Below, piece by piece: positions 31,445 to 57,047 of a stretch of 64,000 nucleotides of DNA. The notes under the pieces are model-generated. The model did not search any database and was not told the origin of the DNA. It saw only the letters and a program-made list of their open reading frames with translations. The stretch's first letter is position 1. Every line of letters starts with the position of its first letter. This stretch comes from Candidatus Saccharimonadota bacterium (GTDB taxonomy: Bacteria; Patescibacteriota; Saccharimonadia; Saccharimonadales; UBA4665). The DNA lies in assembly GCA_003164595.1 (NCBI GenBank), contig PLTT01000017.1, positions 1-64,000 of the forward strand, written 5' to 3'. The translations under genes and the position numbers were made by a program.

Positions 31445-32062
31445 TTAAGCTTTGCTAGATTTTGGAGGCGATGAAATGACGGCATCAACAATCCCGTAAG
31501 CCTTGGCTTGGTCGGGTGTCATCCATTTATCTCGTTCCATGTCGATTCTAATCGTCTCGACCTTTTGGCCGGTGTTCTTAGCCATTATTTCATTAAGTCG
31601 ATGCTTAATCCTAAGTGATTCCTGAAGATCTATCTCCATGTCCGTTACCTTGCCCCGTGTTCCGGAACTTGGTTGGTGAATCATAACGGTTGAATTTGGC
31701 AAAATAAATCGCTTACCTTTTGCGCCGGAACTTAGAAGGAAGGCGGCAGCTGATGCCTGAATCCCTATGCCGACAGTCTGGATGTCATTAGATAAGTATT
31801 GCATAGTGTCATAGATTGCCAATGCATCATAAACACTGCCTCCAGGACTATTGATATAAATTGAGATGTCCTTCTTGGGATCTTCAGATTGCAAGAATAG
31901 TAGTTGGGCAACAATTATATTGGCAGAAGCTTCGTTAACATCCGTTCCGAGAAAAATAATTCGGTCTTTAAGCAGCCGAGAATATATATCATAAGCTCGT
32001 TCATAACGACCTTCTGATTCGATTACAGTTGGAATGAGTACTTGGGCATTTGGTTTAGTCAT
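31445..32062 (-). CDS. clpP: ATP-dependent Clp protease proteolytic subunit
   Basis: From the ATG at 32062 ([20 protein letters not shown]) this is a 205-aa ClpP. The catalytic triad is Ser104 (in [17 protein letters not shown]), His129 (MIHQPSSG) and Asp178 (RDKWM), and the oxyanion segment NSPGGSVYD is present. The usual ASMGAFLL around the serine reads ASAAAFLL. The frame stays open 12 codons upstream, but a TATATT -10 ends 7 nt before 32062, so the short start and a leaderless mRNA are favoured. It should form ClpCP with the ClpC encoded at 53023-55506, which has the same operator type. Confidence 0.96.
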
Positions 32063-32069
32063 ATAAACC

Positions 32070-32098
32070 AATATACACGCCAAATTGGCACTCGTCAA
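32070..32098 (-). promoter_or_regulatory. Promoter of clpP
   Basis: On the minus strand TTGACG (32093-32098) and TATATT (32070-32075) are 17 bp apart. The -10 ends 7 nt before the clpP ATG at 32062, so transcription should begin at the start codon. The -35 lies inside the CIRCE element. Confidence 0.7.
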
Positions 32099-32111
32099 GC
32101 GTGAGTGCTAA
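32085..32111. promoter_or_regulatory. CIRCE element (HrcA operator) at clpP
   Basis: The plus strand reads TTGGCACTC, nine bases, GAGTGCTAA: the CIRCE consensus TTAGCACTC-N9-GAGTGCTAA with one mismatch. It covers the -35 of the clpP promoter and overlaps the tig stop codon. HrcA binding there would block transcription until heat or misfolding stress. No hrcA gene is in the window. Confidence 0.85.
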
Positions 32112-33388
32112 CTATGGTATGAGACGAGTTTGGCTAGGGTTTTTTCGGTCAAAATTTGGTTGACAAGGTTTCGGCTATTTTCCGGTTTGTCGAGTTCTGC
32201 TTGCATCTGCTTGTCTTGGTATTGGCCTTTTAGTATTTGCAGTCTCATTTCAAGTTCTTCAGGTGATACGGTGACATGCTCCTTCTCGGCGATCTCGCTA
32301 AGTACCAGACCCATTTTTACCAGATTTTCGGCTTGGTCACGGTTGCGGTCGCGATGTTGCTCGGCAGTAACGCCCTCGGCTTTAAGGTGCTCATCCCATG
32401 TCGTACCTCGGTATACCAGGTTTTGCTTTTCATCACGTTCCATAATATCTATTTGTTCGTCAACGAGAACCTTTGGAATGGTTACTTTGGTCTTGGCTGT
32501 GATAGCTAGAACTAGGTCATTTTCGTATTTGGACTGAGTTTCTCGGCTGCGCTCGGACTGGAGCTGTTTCTTTACATCTTCCTTTAGCTCGGCAAGCGAC
32601 TTAAAGGGGCCAACTTTTTTGGCGAAATCATCGTCAATCTTAGATTTTGTCACTGCCTTAACTTGCTTAACGGTTACGGTGAAAGATACTTTCTTATTTT
32701 GCAGAGAACTAACTGAATAATCAGCCGGGAACACGATATCAAACGTTTTCTCGGATCCTTCTTTAAGGCCAATCAGTTCAGGTTCAAAACCAGGTATAAA
32801 CGTATTACTGCCAAGTACTAGAGGGTAGTCCTTGCCGTCGGCACCATTAATTGGTTCGCTAGTTTTCGCATCTACTCCGGCAAAATCTATCCAAACCTCA
32901 TCAGTTAACTTGGCTGCACGGTCGACTTTATCCTTAGTTGCCTCTCGTAGTGCCAACTGGTCTAGAACGCCATCGACGTCCTTAGCGGTCACTGGTAGTG
33001 CATTTTTCTCAACTGTTATAGCCTTATAGTCAGGCAAAGTTATATCACCTATATGATCTACCTCGACAACATACTCAAGAGTTGTGAATGGTACGAATCG
33101 AGTGATATTTACTTCTGGGCGATCAACCGGTCGTATGTTTTCCTTAGTCAGAGCCTCGCCGTAGAGCTTATTAACGGCAGCATCGACAAATTCGTCCTGT
33201 AAGCGATGTTGATCTAGACTCTTTTCAACAATATTATCTGGGGCCTTACCTGCTCGAAAGCCTTGGATCTTTAACTCTCGGCCAAGTTTTTTAACGACAT
33301 CTTTCTTAACAGCAGTAATTTCGGGTAAGTCAGCAGTTATTGTCAGCTTGACCCGGGAATCGGTTAATTTCTCTTTTTTGACGTTCAT
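32108..33388 (-). CDS. tig: Trigger factor chaperone
   Basis: The 426-aa protein has the ribosome-binding N-terminal domain with the GFRAGKAP signature that docks on uL23, an FKBP-type prolyl isomerase domain (about residues 160-245, EVWIDFAGVDAKTSEPINGA, GSNTFIPGFEPELIGLKEGS) and a helical C-terminal chaperone domain. It binds nascent chains at the tunnel exit. It lies directly upstream of the clpP promoter, in the common tig-clpP arrangement. No obvious Shine-Dalgarno precedes the ATG. Confidence 0.96.
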   Translation of the reverse strand: MNVKKEKLTDSRVKLTITADLPEITAVKKDVVKKLGRELKIQGFRAGKAPDNIVEKSLDQHRLQDEFVDAAVNKLYGEALTKENIRPVDRPEVNITRFVPFTTLEYVVEVDHIGDITLPDYKAITVEKNALPVTAKDVDGVLDQLALREATKDKVDRAAKLTDEVWIDFAGVDAKTSEPINGADGKDYPLVLGSNTFIPGFEPELIGLKEGSEKTFDIVFPADYSVSSLQNKKVSFTVTVKQVKAVTKSKIDDDFAKKVGPFKSLAELKEDVKKQLQSERSRETQSKYENDLVLAITAKTKVTIPKVLVDEQIDIMERDEKQNLVYRGTTWDEHLKAEGVTAEQHRDRNRDQAENLVKMGLVLSEIAEKEHVTVSPEELEMRLQILKGQYQDKQMQAELDKPENSRNLVNQILTEKTLAKLVSYHS

Positions 33389-51584: not shown

Positions 51585-52961
51585 TTACCCCTTTGCTTTA
51601 GCGTCTTTGTCTCTACCCTCACCCAAATAGGTATTTAGGCCAGTTCGAACGTCTGGAATTCCTTTGAGCATAGGAAATTTATTGCTGCCTCGCTGAACGG
51701 GACCAATTGCCGAAGTAAAGCCCATTTTCTTGGCTTCGTTCAGTCTTTTTTCCAGGAATGATACGTGACGGATTTCACCGGATAAACCTACTTCGCCAAA
51801 GACCACTGAGTTTGTTTTAAGTTGCAGACCTTTAGAAGCGGAACCAATTGCCATACAGATAGCCAAATCGGCCGCTGGGTCTTGGATTCGTATCCCGCCG
51901 ACAATATTTATATATATGTCTTGAGTGGAAAGCTTTAGTTTGGTTCGCCGCTCCAACATAGCGATGAGCAAATTTAGCCGATTTAACTCTATGCCACTAG
52001 CGGCTCGTTTCGGATAACCATAGCTGGTAGGGTTAACCAGCGCCTGAACCTCTACGAGTAGCGGTCTGGTGCCTTCAAGTGTCGCGAGGACAATAGACCC
52101 GTCACTTGGTTGGCGTTCTTCTAGTAAGACTTGTGATGGGTTGGCTACTGGCTGTAGGCCTGACTCAACCATTTCAAAAATTCCGGCCTCGGTTGTCGAT
52201 CCAAAACGGTTTTTACTGGCGCGAAGAATCTTGAAGCCACTGGATACGTCGCCATCAAGCTGCAGAACAACGTCTACCATATGCTCAAGTATTTTTGGCC
52301 CAGCAATTACTCCGTCCTTGGTGACATGGCCAACCAGAATTATGGCAGTATTGGTCTGCTTAGCGACCGAGGTAAGTAGCTGTGTGCTGCCGGTAATTTG
52401 AGATATGGTGCCGGCTGCAGACGACAAGGCATCACAGCGTAGCGTCTGAATTGAGTCAATAATTACGAATTTATATTTCCCTGAGGCAATAGAATCGGCA
52501 ACTTCATCGGCAACATTGCTGGTGACAATTAGCATGTTGTCCTCATCACACTTTAGTCTAAGCGACCTTAGAGCAATTTGGTGGGCCGACTCTTCCCCGC
52601 TGACATATAGGACCGGGTTAGTCTTAGCAATCTCGTTAGCTATCTGCAAAAGTATAGTGCTCTTACCGATCCCCGGTTGACCGGTCAGCAGACTTACGCT
52701 GCCTGGCACGAAGCCCCCACCCAGTACTAAATCAACATCTGATATAGTGGACTTTATCCTTGGATAGTCTGTGATTGCTAAGTCACCAACCGACTGTGGC
52801 TGTAATTTGCCAGTGCTGCGGCTAAGGCCACTAAGAGGCTTAATGGAAATTTCCTCCTGTAGAGTATTCCACTCACCACAAGTCGTACATCGACCCGTCC
52901 AAGCAGACCATACAGCTCCACAATTACTGCAGACAAATCTAGTGCTAGTTCTTTTTGCCAT
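51585..52961 (-). CDS. radA: DNA repair protein RadA
   Basis: The 458-aa RecA-like ATPase has the N-terminal zinc finger (CSNCGAVWSAWTGRCTTCGE, four Cys intact), Walker A LTGQPGIGKST, the RadA-specific KNRFGSTTEAGIF, and a C-terminal Lon-like P domain (QDIYINIVGGIRIQDPAADL, VVFGEVGLSGEIRHVSFLEK). It drives branch migration in recombination. A GAGGA Shine-Dalgarno precedes the ATG. Its zinc ligands are intact, unlike those of RpoC here. Confidence 0.97.
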   Translation of the reverse strand: MAKRTSTRFVCSNCGAVWSAWTGRCTTCGEWNTLQEEISIKPLSGLSRSTGKLQPQSVGDLAITDYPRIKSTISDVDLVLGGGFVPGSVSLLTGQPGIGKSTILLQIANEIAKTNPVLYVSGEESAHQIALRSLRLKCDEDNMLIVTSNVADEVADSIASGKYKFVIIDSIQTLRCDALSSAAGTISQITGSTQLLTSVAKQTNTAIILVGHVTKDGVIAGPKILEHMVDVVLQLDGDVSSGFKILRASKNRFGSTTEAGIFEMVESGLQPVANPSQVLLEERQPSDGSIVLATLEGTRPLLVEVQALVNPTSYGYPKRAASGIELNRLNLLIAMLERRTKLKLSTQDIYINIVGGIRIQDPAADLAICMAIGSASKGLQLKTNSVVFGEVGLSGEIRHVSFLEKRLNEAKKMGFTSAIGPVQRGSNKFPMLKGIPDVRTGLNTYLGEGRDKDAKAKG

Positions 52962-53022: not shown

Positions 53023-55506
53023 TTATTCAGTGGTCTTGATGTACTCAAGTTTACCGTTTTTGGTAGTTACTTGAAGTATGTCGCCCTTGGAGTAATGCTC
53101 ATTTAATATGTCTAGCGATATCTGGTCTTCGAGGGTGTCTTGAATCAGACGCCTAAGCGGTCTGACGCCATTCTTGGCATCGTAGCCGTTGTCTAGCAGA
53201 TACTGCTTGGCTTTATTGGTCAAAACCAAACCGATACCGTGTTTTTGTAAGCGTTGGGACAATTCGTCAATTTGGATATCAATAATCTTGAAGATATTTT
53301 TCTTGGTAAGAGCATGGAAGACTATCGTTTTATCAATACGGTTGAGGAGCTCGGGACGTAGTGACTTTTTGAGTTCTGCAAAAACTTTATCTTTATTGGC
53401 TTCATGCAATTTGGTCAAATCCTTAAGATCATCATCGGTCGAGGCTTGGAACCCAAGTGAAGCTTCTTTTTGGAGCTTTTCAGCCCCAATATTACTGGTC
53501 ATGATAATTATCGAGTTGGTAAAATCAATGCGACGAGCTTTGGCATCTGTAAGATAACCGTCTTCGAGGATCTGCAAAAGCATATTGAAAACATCTGGGT
53601 GGGCTTTTTCGATTTCATCGAATAGTACCAAGCTATAGGGCTGACGGCGGATTTTGTCGGTTAATTGACCACCGTCATCATAGCCAACATAACCAGCTGG
53701 AGCGCCTACGAGTCGGGATATATTATGGTGTTCAGCAAACTCACTCATATCGATCTTAACTAGTGCCGACTCGCTGCCAAAGAATTCTCTAGCCAGCACT
53801 CGGGCCAATTCGGTCTTACCCACGCCGGTTGGGCCGAGGAATATAAATGAGCCAATCGGTCGGTTGGCACTACCAACGCCAATTCTATTACGTCTAATAG
53901 CTTTAGAGACTGCCGTTACGGCTTCCTCTTGACCAATGACATATTTACCGAGGCTTTTTTCTAGGTTAAGCAAGTACTTGGCTTCTGCCCTGATCACTTT
54001 TGATACTGGCACACCGGTAATTCGGGCTACGACTGCCGCAACATCATCACTGGTCAATGCCATTTTTTTGGTAGCCTTTGCGCTAGAAGATAATTTAGAA
54101 AGCTCCTTATTGATCTGGCTAGCCCTTGTCTTGAATCGGGCAGCTCGTTCATAATCCTCACCGTCAACAGCATCATCGATCCGGGTATTAACCAGCTTTA
54201 ACTCTTTTTGGAGCTTGCGCACCTCAGGAGAAGTCTTTACCTTGTTCACTCTAAGATGAGCCGAAGCTTCATCCATTAGGTCGATAGCCTTGTCCGGCAT
54301 AAAGCGTTCGTTAATGTATCTATCTGAAAAATTAACTATATCGCCTAGAACTTCGTCGGTAATTGTTACGCCGTGAAACGCTTCGTAGTGTTTGCGCAAA
54401 CCTTTTAGGATTGATAATGTTTCAGCCGTAGTGGCTTCAGGAACTTGAATCGGCTGGAAACGTCGTTCCAGGGCCATATCTTTTTCAATGTGCTTTGTAT
54501 ATTCGGCGGTAGTTGTGGCGCCAATAACTTGAATTTTACCCCTTGCTAGTGATGGCTTGAGAATATTGCCAGCATCCATTGCGCCCTCGGCTGCGCCAGC
54601 ACCAACAATCAAATGCAGTTCATCAATAAATACAATCGTATTACTGTCATTCTCAAGTTCAGAAAGTACCTTCTTTAGCCTTTCTTCAAATTCGCCTCTA
54701 TATTTGGTCCCGGCAATCATGCCAGCTAGATCTAAAACTACGATTCTTTTATCTATAAGGCTGTCGGGAACGTCTTCGGTAATAATGCGTTGAGCCAAGC
54801 CCTCGACTATGGCAGTCTTGCCCACTCCGGGTTCGCCAATTAAGACTGGGTTGTTCTTGGTGCGCCGATTTAGAATAGTAATCACTCGGCCAATTTGTGC
54901 CTCCCTGCCGACAACCGGATCGAGCTTGCCTTCTTTGGCCTGGGCTGTTAGATCAGTCCCATAAAAATCGAGGGCTGTTTTTCGAGCTTTCCTGGCCGGT
55001 GCCCTTCGACGAGTGGCCGGTTCTGAGGAGGAACCGTCGTATTGCTGACGATTTAGGAATTGCTCAAGCTCGCCAAGTAACGAGTCAATATCGACATTAA
55101 GTTCTCGCAACAGAATTGATGCTCGTGAGTTTTTTTGCGTTAGTATACTGTAGAGGATGTGTTCTGTGCCGCAAAAGTCTTGGTTATAATCTTGGGCAAC
55201 ATCATATGCCATTTTTAGAGTTAATTTGGCGGTTTCGCTCAATCCCTTTGAACCCATATTGATTACCAAAGTCTTGGCATTAACATTCATTGCCAATCGG
55301 GCGCGGTCTAAAGTTACGCCAGCACCTTCCAGAATTTTTGAGCCGATTGAGCTGTCTTGTGCCAGCAGGCCGAGCAGTAAATGCTCAGTACCTATATAAG
55401 CACTGCCGGTAGTACGAGCAATAGCATCAGCATGCTTAAGACTGCTTAGAGCATTGTCTGTCAAAAAGTTTAAAAATTCTTGGAAATCGGGTGATTGTGG
55501 CATCAT
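53023..55506 (-). CDS. clpC: ClpC-type AAA+ unfoldase
   Basis: The 827-aa Hsp100 protein has a double Clp-N domain ([40 protein letters not shown]), AAA+ 1 with Walker [10 protein letters not shown] and Walker [14 protein letters not shown], a short UVR-like middle segment ([20 protein letters not shown]), and AAA+ 2 with Walker [10 protein letters not shown] and [20 protein letters not shown]. The C-terminal D2-small domain has [17 protein letters not shown]. The short middle domain favours ClpC over ClpB. It would feed unfolded substrates to ClpP; both genes carry a CIRCE operator. Two adjacent ATGs (55506, 55503) are possible starts. Confidence 0.95.
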
Positions 55507-55550: not shown

Positions 55551-55579
55551 ATAATAGCCAACTAGCACTCACTAGTCAA
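55551..55579 (-). promoter_or_regulatory. Promoter of clpC
   Basis: On the minus strand TTGACT (55574-55579) and TATTAT (55551-55556) are exactly 17 bp apart, giving a leader of about 38 nt. The -35 is embedded in the CIRCE element, as at clpP. Confidence 0.7.
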
Positions 55580-55588
55580 GAGTGCTAA
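55562..55588. promoter_or_regulatory. CIRCE element (HrcA operator) at clpC
   Basis: The plus strand reads CTAGCACTC, nine bases, GAGTGCTAA: CIRCE with one mismatch to TTAGCACTC-N9-GAGTGCTAA. It overlaps the -35 and spacer of the clpC promoter. Together with the copy at clpP it defines a small HrcA-type heat-shock regulon for the ClpCP protease. Confidence 0.88.
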
Positions 55589-55598
55589 TTAATGATTT

Positions 55599-57047
55599 TT
55601 AAACCGCTGCAATAACAGGGGTACTTTTACCGACTGGGAGCTTCTTTTGCTTGATTACAAAGAAAGCTAAAATGCTAGCTGACAGGGCAAAACAGGATGC
55701 CAGATAAAAAGCTGCGTGGAAACCGTGAACTGTAGCAGCATTTCTAGCGGCTAGATCTTTAATTTTGCTGTGGCTCAGGAATAGTGCTGTCGAGGAAGCT
55801 GATACGCCCGTGATAATTGCTAGTCCTAGTGATCCGCCAATTTGCTGTGACGTATTAACCAACCCTGATGCCAAGCCCGAAAGATGACCTGCAATGCCAG
55901 AAGTGGCAGCAACCAGTAGTGAAACGAAAGTAAAGCCTAGGCCGGCAGCCATGACAAGAAGACCAGGCAAAACATGAGTAAAGTAACTACCATTAACTGG
56001 AACGTGAGCTAGCATGAATAACCCGGCAGCGGTCACTATCGGAGCAACAATAAGTATTGGCTTATAACCAATTCGCTTAATAAGCCTAGGGGCTATGGTG
56101 GCACCGGCTGCTATCACAAATGGCATCGGCAGAAAACTCAAGCCGGTTCTTGAAGGCGAATATCCCAAAACATCTTGGATATAAAGTGATACGAAGAAAA
56201 ACACCGAGAACATTCCAGCCGCCGTAAACAGCTGAATAAGATTCGCACCAGAAACATTTCTAATCTTGAATATTCTTAGTGGCACAAGCGGATGCTTAAC
56301 TTTCATTTCATTAATAACGAATGCTACAAGTAGGGCAATACTTATACCAAAGTAAGCTAGGGTTGAATGTGCCGTCCAGCCCTGGACAGGAGCTTTGACA
56401 AGTCCATAAACTAATAACATTAGGCCGGAGGTAACCAAAGCTGCACCCGGTAAATCAAGGGCATTATCTCGCTCCTCAGCTTCGTGAACGGGTACAATTC
56501 GCCAAGCCATGGCGAAAACAAATATTCCGATTGGGACATTGATGAAAAAGTTCCAGCGCCAACCTAGGTACTGCGTCAAAACCCCGCCCAGTAGTAGTCC
56601 AACGGCTGCGCCACCAGAGGCTACTGCACCCCAGACCGATAAGGCTAGGTTGCGTTCGTGACCTTCTTTATAGGTAACCAGAACTATTGATAAAGCAGCT
56701 GGAGACATGAAAGCAGCCGCTAAACCTTGCAGAGCCCTAAAGGATATCAACATACCGCCGGAGTGAGATAGGCCATCGATTAACGAGATAACTGAAAAAG
56801 CCGTAACGCCTATTAGAAACATTTTCCTACGGCCATATAGGTCAGCAGCTCGTCCACCGAGCAATAAGAATCCGCCAAAAGCTAGAGTATAGGCGGTAAC
56901 GATCCACTGCAGACTAGTCGGACTCAACGCAAAGGCGCTTTGGACTTTAGGCAACATCACATTAACGATTGATGAATCCAAAACCACCATAAATTGGGCA
57001 GTTGCTAGCAGTATCAGTATCAGCCAGTGATTGGTTTTCTTTGTCAT
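55599..57047 (-). CDS. MFS drug:H+ antiporter, DHA2 (EmrB/QacA) family
   Basis: The 482-aa protein has about 14 membrane helices. Motifs are FMVVLDSSIVNVMLPK (motif D1 of the DHA2 family), GRAADLYGRRKMFLIGV (motif A), and ALSVWGAVASGGAAVGLLLG with GWRWNFFINVPIG (motif C area). Such exporters remove drugs or dyes using the proton gradient. The substrate is not predictable. The start has a TGAGGA Shine-Dalgarno, and a strong promoter precedes it. Its stop codon is 11 nt from the clpC CIRCE, and no terminator was seen there. Confidence 0.92.
   Translation of the reverse strand: MTKKTNHWLILILLATAQFMVVLDSSIVNVMLPKVQSAFALSPTSLQWIVTAYTLAFGGFLLLGGRAADLYGRRKMFLIGVTAFSVISLIDGLSHSGGMLISFRALQGLAAAFMSPAALSIVLVTYKEGHERNLALSVWGAVASGGAAVGLLLGGVLTQYLGWRWNFFINVPIGIFVFAMAWRIVPVHEAEERDNALDLPGAALVTSGLMLLVYGLVKAPVQGWTAHSTLAYFGISIALLVAFVINEMKVKHPLVPLRIFKIRNVSGANLIQLFTAAGMFSVFFFVSLYIQDVLGYSPSRTGLSFLPMPFVIAAGATIAPRLIKRIGYKPILIVAPIVTAAGLFMLAHVPVNGSYFTHVLPGLLVMAAGLGFTFVSLLVAATSGIAGHLSGLASGLVNTSQQIGGSLGLAIITGVSASSTALFLSHSKIKDLAARNAATVHGFHAAFYLASCFALSASILAFFVIKQKKLPVGKSTPVIAAV

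Follow-up and report, generated by a model that had tools for sequence, protein, structure and literature searches.

CIRCE operators with embedded promoters point to HrcA control of clpC and clpP in Saccharimonadia

CIRCE operators and promoter-like hexamers at clpC and clpP

The window, that is the whole stretch of 64,000 nucleotides analysed here, corresponds to contig C17 in a genome of 868 kb that is 95% complete. It carries clpC and clpP, with the following genes and sites around them:

31445..32062, minus strand: clpP, 205 aa counted from the ATG at 32062
32070..32075, minus strand: predicted -10 of clpP, TATATT, 17 bp past the -35 and 7 nt ahead of the ATG
32085..32111, minus strand: CIRCE operator of clpP, TTAGCACTC-ACGCTTGAC-GAGTGCCAA, 1/18 mismatch
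32093..32098, minus strand: predicted -35 of clpP, TTGACG, from position 5 of the spacer ACGCTTGAC into the first arm base
32108..33388, minus strand: tig (trigger factor), upstream of clpP
51585..52961, minus strand: radA-like gene, directly downstream of clpC
53023..55506, minus strand: clpC, 827 aa, with Clp_N, two AAA domains and D2-small
55551..55556, minus strand: predicted -10 of clpC, TATTAT, 17 bp past the -35, assigned from sequence
55562..55588, minus strand: CIRCE operator of clpC, TTAGCACTC-TTGACTAGT-GAGTGCTAG, 1/18 mismatch
55574..55579, minus strand: predicted -35 of clpC, TTGACT, positions 1-6 of the spacer TTGACTAGT, assigned from sequence and conservation in relatives
55599..57047, minus strand: MFS transporter gene, separating nusA from clpC in this genome
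57153..58328, minus strand: nusA, the gene next upstream of clpC in most relatives

The nearest solved relatives of the clpC product are ClpC proteins, and its relatives with names are mostly records called Saccharibacteria. Both operators match the CIRCE consensus TTAGCACTC-N9-GAGTGCTAA, and they are the only two sites in the window with three or fewer mismatches; in 100 shuffled versions of the window the mean number of matches was 0.03, and two were never found together.

The minus-strand sequence agrees with the original prediction for clpC, namely a CIRCE whose N9 spacer holds the -35, with the -10 following at 17 bp, and the gene coordinates agree with the predicted distance of 21 kb between clpC and clpP. 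The claim that both genes hold the promoter in the same register fails: within the spacer, the -35 begins at position 1 in the clpC site and at position 5 in the clpP site, and hence the promoters are alike in design and 4 bp apart in register. What stands of the proposed shared design is the -35 in the spacer and the 17-bp spacing at both genes, with the promoter as a whole shifted relative to the operator. Since the clpP -10 ends so close to the ATG, clpP is predicted to give a transcript with little or no leader. The same -10-to-ATG spacing is seen at clpP in many relatives. The left arm of the clpP operator includes, at window positions 32108-32111, the stop codon of tig, TAG (32110-32108).

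This geometry bears on the nature of the repeat. CIRCE is an inverted repeat that in other organisms can lie in the transcribed leader, where it has a role in mRNA stability, and it might be read here too as an RNA hairpin of the 5' leader, acting in stability or thermosensing, instead of a DNA operator. We regard such a hairpin as highly improbable: the -35 falls within CIRCE and the -10 past its end, which places the repeat ahead of the predicted start, so that a transcript from the predicted promoter would not contain it.

Conservation across Saccharimonadia

The class was sampled with 61 Saccharimonadia genomes, in which ClpP was found in 57, ClpC in 59 (E up to 1e-150) and HrcA in 59. Three of them provided no clpC upstream region (G006, where the ClpC match begins at residue 213, G033 and G040), and four no clpP (G017, G019, G031 and G033). 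The exact CIRCE core is present in 58 of the 61 genomes, and a reversed control pattern gave no match. With a site called at no more than 4/18 mismatches in about 300 bp upstream, CIRCE is found at clpC in 38/58 genomes, at clpP in 34/57 and at both in 33/55, counts that are not independent because the genomes are related. The sites concentrate in the order of the window, with 30/32 at clpC and 26/32 at clpP; in the other orders of the class only 8/26 and 8/25, respectively, have one within about 300 bp. Within the window's order, two genomes of one genus (G046 and G048) lack CIRCE at either gene, and in four genomes without the clpP site clpP follows clpC directly or one gene on.

The distance limit conceals a further arrangement. 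In family f9, 10 of 11 genomes have a CIRCE about 1.4-1.6 kb upstream of clpC, at the head of a nusA-clpC unit, with TTGAC or TTGCA in its spacer; counting these heads, clpC has a CIRCE in 48/58 genomes, and 10/58 are without one even then. As this operator with its embedded -35 heads the whole unit (loci L239-L249), NusA may be heat-regulated in this family. A CIRCE at the head of tig-clpP units was considered as a general rule and rejected: G006 has one with 2 mismatches and G001 a weak one with 4, and the other f9 genomes have none.

Named loci gave a second sample, which may share organisms with the first: from 80 loci we removed 19 distant ones (L071-L089), L064 and L065, leaving 59, and then L029 and L040, which have too little upstream DNA, leaving 57 with 300 bp upstream. 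CIRCE is present at clpC in 55 of these 57, the negatives being L042 and L058. Gene order is also retained among the 59 loci: 53 have nusA upstream of clpC and 48 have a radA homologue on its downstream side. The clpC-radA gap is usually about 1 kb in the named loci; in the window radA comes immediately after clpC.

The promoter moves along the operator

Among the named loci, every one of the 55 clpC operators carries TTGAC or TTGCA in its spacer region, starting at position 1 in 49, position 3 in two and position 5 in four. In the 61-genome sample these motifs occur in 31/38 clpC and 23/34 clpP spacers, against 0.9% of random 9-mers. The candidate -10 follows the register: at clpC it starts 4-6 bp past CIRCE in register 1, 6-8 bp in register 3 and 10 bp in register 5, and at clpP mostly 5-6, 7-8 and 9-10 bp in the same three registers (4/26 exceptions). 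The promoter thus appears to slide along the operator while its own spacing is kept. At both genes in the 61-genome sample the spacer motif starts at 1, 3 or 5, and even positions are nearly absent; the odd-only registers perhaps reflect shared descent. At hrcA, examined in the best-scoring 30 of the 59 HrcA matches, CIRCE is present in all 30 loci, with TTGAC or TTGCA in 23.

That the palindromes have no function, being remnants or chance matches, as their absence from some relatives might be taken to suggest, is hardly credible in view of these data: the arms are near-perfect over many genera, the spacer is variable except for the -35, two genes retain the arrangement in parallel, and among shuffled upstream regions only 2/2000 reached the CIRCE threshold.

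Distribution outside the class

The wider phylum was sampled with 145 genomes, 11 of them Saccharimonadia, and 79 of the 145 contain a CIRCE within one mismatch. For clpC outside the class we used 40 upstream regions from 26 families, with ClpC matches chosen for starting near residue 1. CIRCE (at most 4 mismatches) occurs in nine of the 40; TTGAC lies in the spacer in only two of these, both of family f33, and in six others TTGACA lies upstream of CIRCE, which is the classical order. With so few spacer -35s outside the class, operator-embedded clpC promoters belong, in this sample, mainly to Saccharimonadia. The suggested check for CIRCE at clpC and clpP in other Patescibacteria is favourable in Saccharimonadia; in the rest of the phylum CIRCE is patchy at clpC.

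A short HrcA and the other CIRCE-bearing genes

The window genome encodes HrcA on another contig (C8), in the order guanylate-kinase-like gene, hrcA, grpE; the product matches PF01628 over the cut-off and TIGR00331 with 181.9 bits, just under the cut-off of 197.2. The protein is only 237 aa long (L006 2501-3211) and carries the winged-helix domain together with the latter half of the HrcA domain; its homologues in 29 other loci are of similar size (231-247 aa). A predicted model (mean pLDDT 88.9) aligns with Thermotoga HrcA, 1stz, at Z 23.2 and rmsd 2.2 over 229 residues of the 323-residue chain, and hence the short protein is predicted to retain the HrcA fold. Compared with the solved HrcA it lacks some 90-100 central residues, which may be those of the inserted dimerising domain described for 1stz.

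Two CIRCE-like sites lie at hrcA, one of which has a -35 TTGACA in its spacer and a -10 TACACT 17 bp on. The second spans the ribosome-binding region and the start codon (L006 3200-3265). At groES the layout is classical, with CIRCE downstream of a TTGACA-18-TATGAT promoter. CIRCE thus stands both at the hrcA-grpE unit and at groES, and the proposed ClpCP regulon, borne out insofar as both clpC and clpP have the operator, is part of a wider one.

Two more sites were not taken into this set. A CIRCE-like sequence ahead of ftsH (2/14 mismatches) sits at the end of the upstream 293-aa ORF (L006 8526-9407) and has no -10 at 16-18 bp from its TTGTCA; we treat it as chance and reject ftsH as a further target. 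Site C5:15256 (1/14 mismatch) falls within a 78-aa ORF, and no stress gene was recognised there.

CtsR and the case for a second regulator

Neither of two CtsR domain models matched anything in the window genome, in the 61 class genomes or in the 145 phylum genomes; as a control, these models picked up Lactococcus lactis only and failed on Bacillus subtilis, although it carries ctsR, which makes the absence less certain than the counts imply. A search for CtsR boxes as tandem heptads, with the heptad given in an excerpt of PMC3842655, yielded best pairs with 4/14 mismatches in the 400 bp upstream of clpC and clpP. Nor does clpC lie in a ctsR-mcsA-mcsB-clpC cluster: its neighbours are the MFS gene and nusA upstream and radA downstream. 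Within the sensitivity set by the missed control, the predicted absence of CtsR is thus upheld for both the gene and its heptad sites. The further proposal that HrcA takes the place of CtsR is a fair description of function; a history in which HrcA replaced a lost CtsR would be a further, conjectural step.

It is also conceivable that clpC and clpP answer to HrcA together with a second regulator, such as HspR, ClgR, a heat-shock sigma factor or an unrecognised CtsR-like repressor, with HrcA being only one input. Dual control of clp genes by HrcA and CtsR is known in some Firmicutes (passages of PMC6305308 and PMC3842655). In several of our genomes ClpC or ClpP is encoded with no CIRCE close by, and the failure of the control on B. 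subtilis also leaves room for a missed CtsR. We nevertheless consider a second regulator unlikely: the -35 and -10 of clpC and clpP fit the ordinary vegetative sigma consensus, no CtsR-box-like repeats were seen, and the CtsR models matched nothing.

Proposed mechanism

We favour direct control by HrcA, and judge it quite probable from the sequence evidence that HrcA represses clpC and clpP via CIRCE by blocking the -35, and so fills the role that falls to CtsR in Firmicutes. HrcA, whose gene shares its separate contig with grpE, would bind CIRCE at both genes; as the operator contains the -35, HrcA sitting there should cover it and keep RNA polymerase out. Such simple exclusion is the likeliest mode of repression, provided that the hexamers in question are used as promoters. 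In B. subtilis HrcA depends on GroEL to stay active and is set free by unfolded protein (an excerpt of PMC5506225). By that model, unfolded proteins would occupy GroEL, HrcA would lose activity, and ClpC, ClpP, GrpE and GroES would rise together, as on heat induction; if the link holds here, ClpCP synthesis would be tied to GroEL load.

A more specific version is about evenly balanced in our estimation: that operator and promoter have fused, with the -35 of hrcA, clpC and clpP kept within the CIRCE spacer in registers 1, 3 and 5 and 16 to 18 bp from the -10, and that a shortened HrcA, without about 100 central residues, serves as the shared repressor of GrpE, GroES and ClpCP, with no role for CtsR. 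Saccharimonadia are reduced and mostly uncultured, and their stress regulation is hardly described. The finding as a whole would allow much of their proteostasis regulon to be predicted from sequence, and would indicate which promoters HrcA blocks and how.

Relation to known systems

Streptococcus salivarius clpP is reportedly under dual regulation by HrcA and CtsR: it resembles the present case in CIRCE control of clpP and differs in that CtsR also acts there. The class I HrcA/CIRCE regulon of B. subtilis (the dnaK and groE operons) is alike in operator consensus, in an HrcA family repressor and in the hrcA-grpE and groES targets, whereas here CIRCE also stands at clpC and clpP, with the -35 in the spacer. 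The class III system of Firmicutes (ctsR-mcsA-mcsB-clpC; clpP) likewise places clpC and clpP under one repressor, but the repressor and operator here are different ones, with no ctsR or CtsR box found. According to passages of PMC6305308, Bacilli keep the HrcA and CtsR regulons fully separate, and Oenococcus oeni has CtsR alone, with no hrcA or CIRCE; the latter also has one repressor for chaperones and Clp proteins and is thus a mirror image, with CtsR there and HrcA here.

Control of protease genes by HrcA is already known. In Mollicutes the HrcA regulon reaches clpB and lon besides dnaK and dnaJ (excerpts of PMC4245973 and PMC5138195), which is a comparable extension to protease and Clp genes in small genomes, with clpB and lon as targets versus clpC and clpP here; for Mycoplasma gallisepticum this literature places the elements upstream of the promoters, in contrast to the -35 inside CIRCE found here. 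In Firmicutes, Lactobacillus gasseri clpL is under HrcA (an excerpt of PMC3192767). ClgR sites are described at clpP and clpC in Bifidobacterium (an excerpt of PMC9004370), and in delta-proteobacteria sigma-32-like promoters are described at clp genes and HrcA controls chaperones (an excerpt of PMC545781). What look new are the lineage-wide ClpCP regulon and the operator-embedded promoter; among the matches listed from the open-licence literature, no paper treats HrcA/CIRCE in Saccharibacteria or Patescibacteria.

The named loci also include a record titled Chlamydiae bacterium (L010), whose ClpC is 80% identical to that of the window and whose clpC has the same CIRCE; this record is probably mislabelled or derived from a mixed bin.
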